In this document: one piece after another, positions 15,973 to 45,254 of the stretch
Layout of the letters: the number at the start of each line of letters is the position of its first letter
Numbering within the stretch: the first letter of the stretch is position 1
Source of the DNA: Streptomyces sp. MMG1121
Lineage (GTDB): Bacteria; Actinomycetota; Actinomycetes; Streptomycetales; Streptomycetaceae
DNA: 64,000 bases
Assembly: GCF_001280015.1 (NCBI RefSeq)
Contig: NZ_LGDV01000190.1
Coordinates: 248,001-312,000 of the forward strand
Reading direction: 5' to 3'
Position numbers and translations under genes: made by a program
The notes under the pieces: generated by a model
The model's input: the letters and a program-made list of their open reading frames with translations, nothing else
What the model was told of the DNA's origin: nothing
Database searches by the model: none

Positions 15973-15984
15973 TACGGTCGCCGC
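15973..15984 (+). promoter_or_regulatory. Probable -10 element for the Thr leader transcript
   Basis: TACGGT lies 6 bases before the leader-peptide ATG (15985). This predicts a transcript beginning at or near that ATG, i.e. a leaderless leader peptide. No convincing -35 is seen. Confidence 0.35.
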
Positions 15985-16047
15985 ATGCAGCGCGCCCACT
16001 CGTGTCCGTCGAGCACGACGACGCCGGAGACCGTCCCGGCGCGCTGA
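15985..16047 (+). CDS. Threonine-rich leader peptide (20 aa) of thrS-like gene
   Basis: ATG 15985 to TGA 16047 encodes a 20-residue peptide containing SSTTTPET: three consecutive ACG codons (16015-16023) and a fourth Thr codon ACC at 16030. It lies 90 bases upstream of a threonyl-tRNA synthetase gene, with strong competing hairpins in between. This is the classic layout of ribosome-mediated attenuation, in which stalling at Thr codons under low charged tRNA-Thr would alter hairpin choice. The codon content is read directly; the regulatory function is inferred. Confidence 0.72.
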   Translation: MQRAHSCPSSTTTPETVPAR

Positions 16048-16063
16048 CACCTGACCAGCATCG

Positions 16064-16115
16064 AAGCCCCGGGGCGAACGCCCCGGGGCTTCTGGCGTGT
16101 CCCGGGGCGTTCGCC
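16064..16115 (+). promoter_or_regulatory. Mutually exclusive hairpins (attenuator) before thrS-like gene
   Basis: Hairpin 1:2 pairs 16064-16076 with 16079-16091 (13 perfect bp). Segment 2 can instead pair with segment 3: 16073-16087 is exactly complementary to 16101-16115 (15 bp). The two structures cannot coexist. The following CTCC (16117-16120) can also pair with the GGAG of the ribosome site (16127-16130). Control could therefore be by transcription termination or by blocking translation. No long U tract follows either hairpin. Confidence 0.68.
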
Positions 16116-16136
16116 TCTCCCACCGAGGAGGACCCC

Positions 16137-17363
16137 GTGCACGACCAGCTTCCCGACCACCGCCGCCTCGGCCGCGAACTCGGCCTGTTCGACACCGACC
16201 CGCTCATGGGCGCCGGCCTGCCGTACTGGCTGCCCGACGGCGCCCTCGTCCGGCACACCCTGGAGGAGTACGTCCGCGAGGCCGAACGCCGGGCCGGGTA
16301 CCGGCACGTGTACTCGCCCGCGCTCGGCAAACGCGAGCTGTACGAGATCTCCGGGCACTGGGACCACTACCGCGACGACATGTACCCGTCGATGCGGATC
16401 GGCGCGGAGGAGGTCGTGCTGCGCCCCAGCCTCTGCCCCCACCACGCACTGATCTACCGCTCCCGCTCCCACAGCTACCGTGAACTGCCGCTCCGCATCG
16501 CCGAGTTGGGCGGCATGCACCGCTCCGAACGCTCCGGTGTCCTCGGCGGTCTGACCCGCGTCCGCGCCATCCAGCTCAACGACGCCCATATCTTCTGCAC
16601 CCTGGAACAGGCGGTGGACGAGGCCCGCGCCGCGCTGGAACTGATCGCCCGCGCCTACGCCGACCTCGGCATAGAGGCCGTACGCCACCGGCTGTCGCTG
16701 CCCGGCGAGGGCGGCAAGTACGTCGCCGACCCAGAGCTGTGGCGGCGGGCCACCGCCCTGCTGCGGCAGGTGCTGGAGGAGTCCGGCATCGCCCACGAGG
16801 AGGCCGAGGGCGAGGCCGCCTTCTACGGCCCCAAGATCGACGTGCAGATCGCGGACCCCGCCGGCCGGGAGTCCACCCTGTCCACCGTACAGATCGACTT
16901 CCACCAGCCGGCCCGCTTCGACCTGCACTACATCGGCGCCGACGGCGCGAGGCACCGCCCGGTGATGGTCCACCGCAGCATCATCGGCAGTGTCGAACGG
17001 GCCGTCGCCCACCTGGTCGAGGCACACCGCGGCGCCTTCCCGGCCTGGCTGGCGCCCGTGCAGCTGGTCGTGCTGCCCATCGCCGAGGAGCAGGCGGAGC
17101 AGGCGGCGGAACTCGTCCGGGAGGCGGTCGGACTGGGGCTGCGCGCCGAACTCGCCGGCCCCGAGCAGGGCACCCTCGGCGCCCGCATCCGGGCCGCGCG
17201 CCTCGTGCCGTACCAGGCGGTGATCGGCGCCCGAGAGGCCGCCGCGGGCCTGGCCGCCGTACGTCTGCGCGACGGCCGCCGCCCCGGCGCGCTGCCCGGC
17301 GCCGAGCTGCTGCGCCGGATCGCGGACCGGGTGGCCGCCCGCGGCACCGTGCTCTGGAACTGA
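16137..17363 (+). CDS. thrS: Compact threonyl-tRNA synthetase without TGS/editing domains
   Basis: A 408-residue class II synthetase starting at GTG 16137 behind GAGGAGG. The catalytic core is complete: motif 1 region (DPLMGAGLPYWLPDGALVRHTLEEY), motif 2 (RIAELGGMHRSERSGVLGGLTRVRAIQLNDAHIFC) with zinc ligands C (LRPSLCPHH), H and H, and motif 3 (HRPVMVHRSIIGSVERAVAHLVE). The C-terminal anticodon-binding domain follows (WLAPVQLVVLPIAEEQ). The TGS and N2 editing domains of the usual ~650-residue enzyme are absent, so mischarged Ser-tRNA-Thr could not be hydrolysed in cis. It is presumably a second, conditional ThrRS; a full-length copy should exist elsewhere. Some such extra copies confer resistance to ThrRS inhibitors. 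Confidence 0.93.
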   Translation: MHDQLPDHRRLGRELGLFDTDPLMGAGLPYWLPDGALVRHTLEEYVREAERRAGYRHVYSPALGKRELYEISGHWDHYRDDMYPSMRIGAEEVVLRPSLCPHHALIYRSRSHSYRELPLRIAELGGMHRSERSGVLGGLTRVRAIQLNDAHIFCTLEQAVDEARAALELIARAYADLGIEAVRHRLSLPGEGGKYVADPELWRRATALLRQVLEESGIAHEEAEGEAAFYGPKIDVQIADPAGRESTLSTVQIDFHQPARFDLHYIGADGARHRPVMVHRSIIGSVERAVAHLVEAHRGAFPAWLAPVQLVVLPIAEEQAEQAAELVREAVGLGLRAELAGPEQGTLGARIRAARLVPYQAVIGAREAAAGLAAVRLRDGRRPGALPGAELLRRIADRVAARGTVLWN

Positions 17364-44029: not shown

Positions 44030-45175
44030 CTACCAGCCGCCGACACGCTCCCAGAAGGCTCGGACGGCGGGTGCGTCGGTCGCCGGCTCGGTGCTGTCGA
44101 TGACGTGGTAGCCGCGGTGCTGGGCCGCGGTCGCGCACGCGTGGTTGGGCAGGACGCGCAGCCGGGTGCCGACGGGCAGGTCGGGCAGGACGGCGCCGTC
44201 GCGGGCGGTGAGGGTGCCGTGTTCCTGGCTGGCGTCGCTCATGACCAGACCGGGGACGAGATTCCCCCGCAGGTCGGTGACGAGGCCGTAACCCTGGTCC
44301 TGGGGCTGACCCGCGGTGCCCCGGTCGCGGGACATGGCCATCCACCCGCCGTCGGTGAGGATCCAGCCGTACTCCGGGCGGTGGCCGATGACGGTGACGA
44401 CGACCGACAGGGCGAGGTCGTCGACCTGGCAGACGCCGAGCCCGGCCATGACGAGATCGAAGAACACGTAGGTGCCGGCGCGCAGTTCGGTGACGCCGGT
44501 GAGATCCTCGGCGGCGTGGGCGGTGGGAGTGGAGCCGACGCTGACGGTGTGCACCGGCAGCCCGTGCGCGCGCAGTCTCTCCGCGGCGGCGACCACGGCG
44601 TCCCGCTCGTTCCTGGCAGCCAGGCACCGCTCGTCCGCCGTGTGGGCGAAATAGGACTCGCCCGCGTGGGCCAGTACGCCGTCCAGGCAGCCGGCGTCGT
44701 GCAGGGTGCGACCGATGCCGACGAGCGCGGGGGCGTCGGTCCGCAGGCCGCCGCGGTGTCCGTCGCAGTCGATCTCGATCTGCGCGGGGATGCCGATGCC
44801 CGCCTCGCGGGCGGCTTCCGCCACGCATGCCGCCTGCTCGGTGCTGTCCAGGAGGATGCGCAGGGTGGTCCCGCGGCGCAGGAGGGCGATCACCCGGGGC
44901 AGTTTGTGGGGGGCGATGCCGACGGCGTAGGTGATGTCGGTGTACCCGCCGTCGGCGAACGCCTCGGCCTCGGCGAGGGTCGAGACGGTGACGGGGCAGG
45001 GGGTGCCGCCGTGCAGGAGGGCGGCGACGTCCAGGCTCTTGGCCGTCTTGACGTGCGGGCGCAGGGTGACACCGAGTCGTTCGGCCTTGGCCGCGAGGCG
45101 GTCGATGTTCCGCCGGGCTTTGCGCACGTCGACGACCGCGAACGGAGTGTCGGGGTCGGCCAGGGTGCGGTTCAC
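44030..45175 (-). CDS. DSD1-type PLP-dependent D-amino-acid/3-hydroxy-amino-acid lyase
   Basis: A 381-residue alanine-racemase-fold (type III) enzyme from GTG 45175. The PLP lysine lies in LRPHVKTAKS (Lys 43). The C-terminal metal site PNHACAT (His-x-Cys) is typical of D-serine dehydratase (DSD1) and D-threonine aldolase; GSTPTAHAAEDLTGVTELRAGTYVFFD is also family-typical. It would remove or cleave D-serine, D-threonine or erythro-3-hydroxyaspartate; the exact substrate is not readable. The upstream DauR-like regulator probably controls it. Confidence 0.92.
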   Translation of the reverse strand: MNRTLADPDTPFAVVDVRKARRNIDRLAAKAERLGVTLRPHVKTAKSLDVAALLHGGTPCPVTVSTLAEAEAFADGGYTDITYAVGIAPHKLPRVIALLRRGTTLRILLDSTEQAACVAEAAREAGIGIPAQIEIDCDGHRGGLRTDAPALVGIGRTLHDAGCLDGVLAHAGESYFAHTADERCLAARNERDAVVAAAERLRAHGLPVHTVSVGSTPTAHAAEDLTGVTELRAGTYVFFDLVMAGLGVCQVDDLALSVVVTVIGHRPEYGWILTDGGWMAMSRDRGTAGQPQDQGYGLVTDLRGNLVPGLVMSDASQEHGTLTARDGAVLPDLPVGTRLRVLPNHACATAAQHRGYHVIDSTEPATDAPAVRAFWERVGGW

Positions 45176-45254
45176 AGGATGACGTCCCTTTCTCGGGCAG
45201 GGTCGCCGGTCACCGGGCGCCGCGGGAGGAGCCCCGGGGGGCATGGAAAACCCC

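Follow-up and report, generated by a model that had tools for sequence, protein, structure and literature searches.

The short threonyl-tRNA synthetase (ThrRS) gene of the window, by which we mean the whole 64,000-nt stretch of Streptomyces sp. MMG1121 DNA analyzed here, is preceded by a leader that is likely to act by synthetase leader-peptide attenuation, with threonine codons as the sensor and access to the Shine-Dalgarno (SD) sequence as the controlled step. Our model, built from sequence comparison, predicts that when charged tRNA-Thr is in short supply, the leader probably switches the short ThrRS on.

The gene (16137..17363, forward strand, as are all features given below) has a GTG start and encodes 408 amino acids, in which only the Pfam domains PF00587 and PF03129 are found, i.e., a class II catalytic core and an anticodon-binding domain; the protein scores above the TIGR00418 (thrS) cut-off. 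The preliminary description of this DNA had assumed a Thr-codon leader ahead of a ThrRS without editing domain, and both the conservation of the leader and the domain content support this. Another locus of the genome encodes a full-length ThrRS of 670 amino acids that shares 41% identity with the short one in the core region, and the closest relatives of the window’s thrS, among the matches listed, are found in Streptomyces.

The leader frame, MQRAHSCPSSTTTPETVPAR, runs from an ATG at 15985 to a TGA stop at 16045-16047 (15985..16047) and, as read from the sequence, has the 20 codons and the Thr-codon run that had been claimed for it. The sequence ACG-ACG-ACG-CCG-GAG-ACC spans 16015-16032, and the putative control codons ACG ACG ACG, identified from codon counts in 180 leaders, lie at 16015..16023. 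One mark of a ribosome-mediated leader-peptide attenuator is a short ORF with clustered codons of the amino acid tied to the downstream gene, and a predicted ORF of this kind is found here ahead of thrS. Upstream, a -10 element TACGGT (15973..15978) is placed 6 nt 5' of the leader ATG. In 172 of 180 loci, such a TANNNT element precedes the leader start by 6-7 nt, compared with 0.2 in shifted windows, and this placement agrees with the -10 motif and its average distance (6.3 nt) given for S. lividans in the accessible part of PMC8079986. Together with what that source says of the S. lividans thrL leader, it indicates that the leader transcript is apparently leaderless, as the preliminary description had it.

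A script located the leader in 180 of 183 distinct loci. L130 was missed by the search pattern, though its leader is visible, and L137 is interrupted by a contig end. The DNA core of the leader, ACGACGACGCCGGA-N4-GTCCCGGCGCGCTGA, shows almost no variation across the class. Specifically, ACG stands at the three positions of the Thr run in 174, 179, and 173 of the 180 leaders, the run being shifted by one in seven leaders with an extra codon, and the Pro, Val, Pro, Ala, and Arg that follow keep one codon in 173, 168, 172, 173, and 179 leaders, respectively. Three Thr codons in a row are present in 174 leaders and only two in the other six. Departures from the core codons are mostly a one-codon insertion, so that each of the eight core positions (three Thr, Pro, Val, Pro, Ala, Arg) carries one codon in 93-99% of the leaders. 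For comparison, the thrS coding sequence (128 loci) has 67 four-fold columns with a conserved amino acid, at which the median share of the top codon is 70%, and only 7 of the 67 reach about 93% or more. The leader core is frozen at synonymous sites, unlike most four-fold columns of the gene that it precedes. In two loci (L067 and L198) the reading frame of the core is shifted with a thrS match still downstream; these are natural variants or sequencing errors.

The DNA core was found at 81 of 81 thrS loci (80 among the matches listed and the window’s own copy), L067 with its shifted leader frame included. Within the order, 123 of 293 genomes have a short ThrRS (matches listed with E below 1e-110), and all 293 have some ThrRS match with E up to 0.001; the core with up to three mismatches occurs in 135 of 286 order genomes, a count that includes chance hits, against four for a reversed control. 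In the class, the core with up to two mismatches is present in 53 of 344 genomes and 16 of 115 genera, and the reversed control pattern has no hit among the matches listed. When 20 class-level core matches were taken as loci, the 18 exact ones preceded thrS and the two with two mismatches did not. Conversely, 25 of 148 class-sampled genomes encode a short ThrRS, and all 25 have the leader core, which lies beside the gene in 24 and contains a 3-nt insertion in the 25th (G006). The comparison across loci that the preliminary description had proposed as a check shows conserved Thr codons and a core in 25 of 25 genomes with a short ThrRS, as well as the covarying stems described below.

More distant relatives keep TTTP, and most change the end of the peptide. 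L301, a locus on a Mycobacterium intracellulare plasmid, encodes a protein with relatives (E below 1e-110) in 11 of 201 genomes of family f6, taken to be a mycobacterial family. Each of the 11 is accompanied by an upstream TTTP-containing ORF, whose end differs from VPAR in nine; the ends in this family and in L301 include ...AGALTMN, ...AGAFVMD, ...FRRIV, ...FRRRVAHC, and ...YIRS. Among the matches listed, 10 of 15 records of plasmid-filed thrS relatives are 60-80% identical, and no relative was found in viral contigs. The plasmid-filed loci L298, L299, L300, and L301 all have a TTTP leader, with a changed core in L299 and a different C-terminus in L301. Elsewhere, a leader stands beside a truncated thrS in which only query residues 346-408 are matched (L206, genome G222), and three further leaders (L207 in G104, L208 in G071, L209 in G033) lack a convincing thrS match within the stretch retrieved; these four are apparent relics after gene loss, to judge from the sequences.

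These patterns bear on the idea that the nascent peptide TTTPExVPAR itself, and not codon supply, stalls the ribosome. In its favor, most of the 180 leaders share the peptide TTTP(E/D)xVPAR-stop, yet the Val of VPAR is swapped for Leu, Ile, Pro, or Ser in five of them, the leaders of family f6 and L301 combine TTTP with other C-termini, and a peptide signal does not account for DNA that is frozen at synonymous sites. We give arrest by the peptide only a very slight chance, and return to codon sensing coupled to SD access.

Downstream of the leader frame, the RNA can be folded into competing structures, and the leader region of the window folds more stably than shuffled sequences (z = -4.5). 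Hairpin 1:2 pairs arm 1 (16063..16075) with arm 2 (16080-16092) in 13 bp around the apex GAAC (16076-16079; apex and arm 2 together, 16076..16092). The preliminary description was right about the presence of this hairpin, although its coordinates were one base off and would leave a 2-nt loop; its 15-bp pairing 2:3, of 16073-16087 with 16101-16115, is exact. Segment 3 (16101..16115) can pair with the apex and arm 2 (2:3) or with the SD region (3:4). The latter gives a predicted hairpin (16105..16136; 16105-16117 with 16125-16136) that would hide the SD sequence GAGGAGG (16125..16131) through the helices 16105-16107/16134-16136, 16109-16112/16130-16133, and 16114-16117/16125-16128; the CTCC at 16117-16120 and the ribosome site that it had been said to cover are both present. 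Since segment 3 is common to 2:3 and 3:4, the two helices are mutually exclusive, and both covary, which upholds the earlier claim of mutually exclusive helices and points to control of translation.

To quantify covariation, we used an alignment (A2) of 150 loci drawn from the 183 distinct ones, omitting L067 (leader frameshift), L073 (collapsed hairpin), 17 near-duplicates, and 14 loci removed by hand to reach 150. In this alignment, 2:3 joins GGCGAGTG, in the apex region of the hairpin, to the segment 3 sequence CACTCGCC; 93.6% of its cells are paired, compared with 22-58% in slid controls, and six of the eight pairs show changes on both sides. Double-change cells number 57, against 5.3 in shuffled alignments, and none of 500 shuffles scored as high. 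For 1:2 and 3:4 together, 86.9% of cells are paired, with 123 double-change cells against 62 in shuffles; double changes fall in 15 of 24 pairs, a number reached by 14 of 500 shuffles, and some poorly aligned 3:4 helices are paired in just 57-71% of cells. In L176 and L185, both helices are changed together, as judged by eye. A deletion in L073 removes the apex and shortens hairpin 1:2 while the SD hairpin remains, so that this locus is a natural variant without the usual 2:3.

The apex itself may resemble the SD sequence. In L301 and in two loci of family f6 (L302 and L303), it has the SD word or a close copy of it, and segment 3 is by eye complementary to apex and SD alike: the L303 apex holds the SD word GGAGCAG, and that of L302 differs from the SD by one base. 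In the related loci L304-L310, the match between apex and segment 3 does not clearly exceed that in shuffles. Over 191 loci, the ungapped apex:3 match is strong (mean 9.2 nt vs 6.2 shuffled) and the 3:SD match modest (6.3 vs 5.5), and the test for one pairing core common to all three gives a value only slightly above chance (4.7 vs 4.4; 4 of 195 loci, among them the window’s own, were left out because a segment was too short). Consequently, the idea of an SD-like apex is drawn from the covariation and from the clear single cases L301, L302, and L303, and not from the shared-core test.

Autorepression is a further account. If ThrRS bound the leader RNA as a mimic of tRNA-Thr, in the manner of E. 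coli thrS, whose autoregulation is mentioned in the accessible text of PMC2965389, the leader ORF would be secondary; an apex that is frequently GAGU with an NGU triplet speaks for this. However, the apex varies (GAAC, GCAC, GUAC) and covaries with segment 3, and the frozen ACG codons are left unexplained. Moreover, the E. coli thrS operator needs the N-terminal domain of ThrRS, and the short ThrRS consists of the core and anticodon-binding domains only. We therefore regard autorepression as highly improbable.

A second way for an attenuator to work, other than the SD masking that we prefer, is at the level of transcription: hairpin 1:2 would be an intrinsic terminator without U-run, formed under the control of the leader ribosome as in trp and leuS leaders. 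Hairpin 1:2 is indeed a very stable, conserved GC hairpin, and Streptomyces terminators can lack U-runs. In addition, the Streptomyces trp and leuS attenuators are described with terminators in the available part of PMC1262725. Nevertheless, a consensus scan of the window found no terminator-like site and no U-run terminator after the GC hairpin; S. lividans thrL is reported as having one hairpin, no uridine-rich sequence, and a termination that is not clear (PMC8079986, accessible part); and a 3:4 helix that covaries with the SD would be unnecessary for termination. Transcriptional attenuation is thus an unlikely, though not far-fetched, account. Among described RNA families, neither the T-box covariance model nor the E. 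coli-type Thr operon leader model of Rfam matches the window’s leader, for which no Rfam model reaches its curated threshold.

How would a ribosome on the Thr codons be coupled to SD access? In the mechanism that we favor, 3:4 would mask the SD and 2:3 would compete for segment 3, and the link to the leader ribosome would be segment B, GTCCCGGCGCGC (16033..16044), whose possible partners are segment Z, segment A, and arm 1. Segment A (CGCCGG, 16022..16027) overlaps the last Thr codon. With a ribosome on the Thr codons, A would be covered and B free; at the stop codon, the ribosome would cover B. With the usual ribosome footprint, the covered region ends about 30 nt short of arm 1 in the first case and a few nucleotides short in the second, so arm 1 would be covered in neither.

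Five of the six A:B pairs are formed in 150 of 150 loci of A2 and the sixth in 149, without covariation; A:B and B:1 are almost devoid of covariation because A, B, and arm 1 hardly vary, the segment B codons GTC, CCG, GCG, and CGC each being constant in 168-179 of the 180 leaders. In related leaders among L304-L310, the pre-stop segment is complementary by eye to arm 1 with changed bases (CUUCCGG with CCGGGAG), which is suggestive support for B:1; such complementarity is not clearly kept in L302 and L303. Segment Z (CAGCGCGCC, leader codons 2-4, 15988..15996) is complementary to B and pairs with it in the predicted fold of the window. Arg codon 3, within Z, ends in C or T in 156 of 158 loci and in G in none, compared with G at 45% across the variable codons of the leader; a control limited to Arg is small and gives a weaker contrast (G in 2 of 21 variable Arg codons), and for this reason the evidence for Z:B is suggestive only.

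Equilibrium folding supports the masking of the SD and shows no switch. The SD is paired at 0.84 on average, against 0.73 with a shuffled upstream segment, and more so in 67 of 79 loci, but in the same 79 loci it stays unpaired at only 0.15-0.17 on average at all eight 5' boundaries, including those with B free. With B free, a fold forced to contain 2:3 lies a median of 10.3 kcal/mol above the minimum, and less than 2 kcal/mol above it in 8 of 149 loci; without arm 1, the probability of 2:3 exceeds 0.5 in 71 of 149. In the window, the probability of 2:3 is 0.90 when B is covered and only 0.30 when B is free, which is opposite to the model. With B free and the RNA extending up to segment 3, the minimum-energy fold of the window combines B:1 and 2:3 (-51.7 vs -51.1 for forced 1:2), helices that share three bases, whereas the ensemble prefers 1:2 (0.69), and 2:3 disappears when the RNA is extended to take in the SD. 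As a proof of the switch, equilibrium folding therefore failed, with the SD paired on average everywhere and 2:3 mostly unfavored with B free. Given this, we infer the coupling of the stalled ribosome to the SD from the geometry and from the frozen segment B, and it would need to be kinetic. A pairing of B with segment 3, a simpler route that appears in some minimum-energy folds (e.g., L083, L163), was rejected, as by eye it is not kept in A2 where segment 3 changes.

The second line of evidence is a partition of Thr codons between leader and gene. The Thr codons of the 180 leaders are 536 ACG, 54 ACC, 2 ACT, and 2 ACA, the run of three being ACG. By contrast, all nine Thr codons of the window’s short thrS are ACC, and in 117 distinct loci the 1,084 Thr codons of short thrS comprise 1,073 ACC, 7 ACT, 2 ACG, and 2 ACA; the thrS relatives in family f6 and L301 have 0-2 ACG each. 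In the matching region of 20 housekeeping ThrRS genes, ACG makes up 73 of 345 (ACC 269, ACT 3), and the background is 33.7% ACG among Thr codons (200 ORFs, part of the window’s genome). Thr is itself depleted, at 2.3% of residues in short ThrRS (117 loci) vs 4.3% in the housekeeping region (20 genes), and the Ala, Pro, and Val codons of short thrS show no comparable skew. Elsewhere in the window, the minus-strand ORF 44033-45244 has ACG in 2 of 31 Thr codons, the second lowest of 166 ORFs.

Within a subset of 70 tRNA hits, there are at least two tRNA-Thr genes with anticodon GGU and at least one each with CGU and UGU. According to the accessible part of PMC1183508, E. coli attenuators use the control codons that are most sensitive to supply, and selective charging is verified in the Thr family. 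The ACG run of the leader and the scarcity of ACG in the thrS coding sequence agree with this theory if tRNA-Thr(CGU) is the first to lose its charge here. Our model then predicts that the run would sense tRNA-Thr(CGU) charging while the thrS mRNA would stay readable. That proteins needed in starvation should avoid supply-sensitive codons is our own extension of selective-charging theory, and here both halves of the codon-choice idea would be joined, in strong contrast, in one short, natural, class-wide module.

As to the role of the enzyme, the short ThrRS is auxiliary and patchy, is sometimes on plasmids, and has about half the housekeeping Thr content; our best guess from the sequences is a rescue enzyme that would serve when ThrRS is inhibited or threonine is scarce. 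At the position of E. coli ThrRS L489, a borrelidin resistance hot spot (PMC4389257, accessible part), short ThrRS of 117 loci has Ile in 108, Val in 7, and Leu in 1, with one not matched, compared with Leu in 17 and Val in 3 of 20 housekeeping enzymes, a difference that is no more than a hint. The obvious precedent for an auxiliary, inhibitor-related synthetase is the indolmycin-resistant TrpRS1 of S. coelicolor (PMC9437257, accessible part). Taken jointly, the data could describe an isoacceptor-specific rescue switch, a reading to which we give somewhat less than an even chance: the ACG run would report tRNA-Thr(CGU) charging; the rescue synthetase, purged of ACG and Thr-depleted, would remain translatable when induced; the anti-SD segment would pair with the SD or an SD-like apex in most lineages; and the module, spread across Actinomycetes and sometimes on plasmids, might protect against natural ThrRS inhibitors. 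It would suggest a regulated rescue enzyme for lost ThrRS activity, which is relevant beside makers of such inhibitors as borrelidin, and a covarying RNA element without an Rfam model at threshold would help to annotate many thrS genes.

Several known systems resemble this one in part. S. coelicolor TrpRS1 is controlled by leader-peptide attenuation. With TrpRS1 and the trpS and leuS attenuators, the thrS leader shares a Streptomyces synthetase gene behind a short leader of cognate codons (PMC1262725), and with TrpRS1 also the auxiliary status of the enzyme (PMC9437257); those systems, as far as the accessible text of these sources goes, are described with terminators, whereas the thrS leader has predicted SD masking and a class-wide conserved core. 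The E. coli thr operon leader likewise has Thr control codons, but ACC instead of ACG (PMC1183508, accessible part). It also governs a different gene, with a transcriptional output. To our knowledge, T-boxes have no leader ORF, unlike the thrS leader. Actinobacterial ileS T-boxes, which are thought to act on translation, have SD masking before a synthetase gene, as is predicted here, and the same source, in its available part, reports no conservation of RNA structure ahead of actinobacterial threonine operons (Seliverstov et al., PMC1262725). The closest relative is thrL. The comparative survey of synthetase attenuators by Lopatovskaya et al. (2010) may also bear on the thrS leader. The preliminary description knew of no described leader of this type, which does not hold: the S. 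lividans TK24 reannotation lists eight leader peptides, among them a threonine-dependent thrL, MKRVRPFLETTPGFVPAR, upstream of thrS (SLIV_19410) and transcribed leaderless, and since our locus L203 encodes exactly this peptide, the leader was already known in one strain (PMC8079986, accessible part); no other description was found in the accessible open-licence literature. The window’s leader belongs to the same peptide family before thrS, and is likewise, as it appears, leaderless, with one hairpin and no U-run, but has three Thr codons plus one where thrL has two. The thrL account, in the part of PMC8079986 that is accessible, concerns one strain and does not include SD sequestration, alternative pairing, conservation, or codon bias. 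New with respect to it are the class-wide core, the covarying helices 1:2, 2:3, and 3:4, and the partition of ACG between leader and coding sequence.
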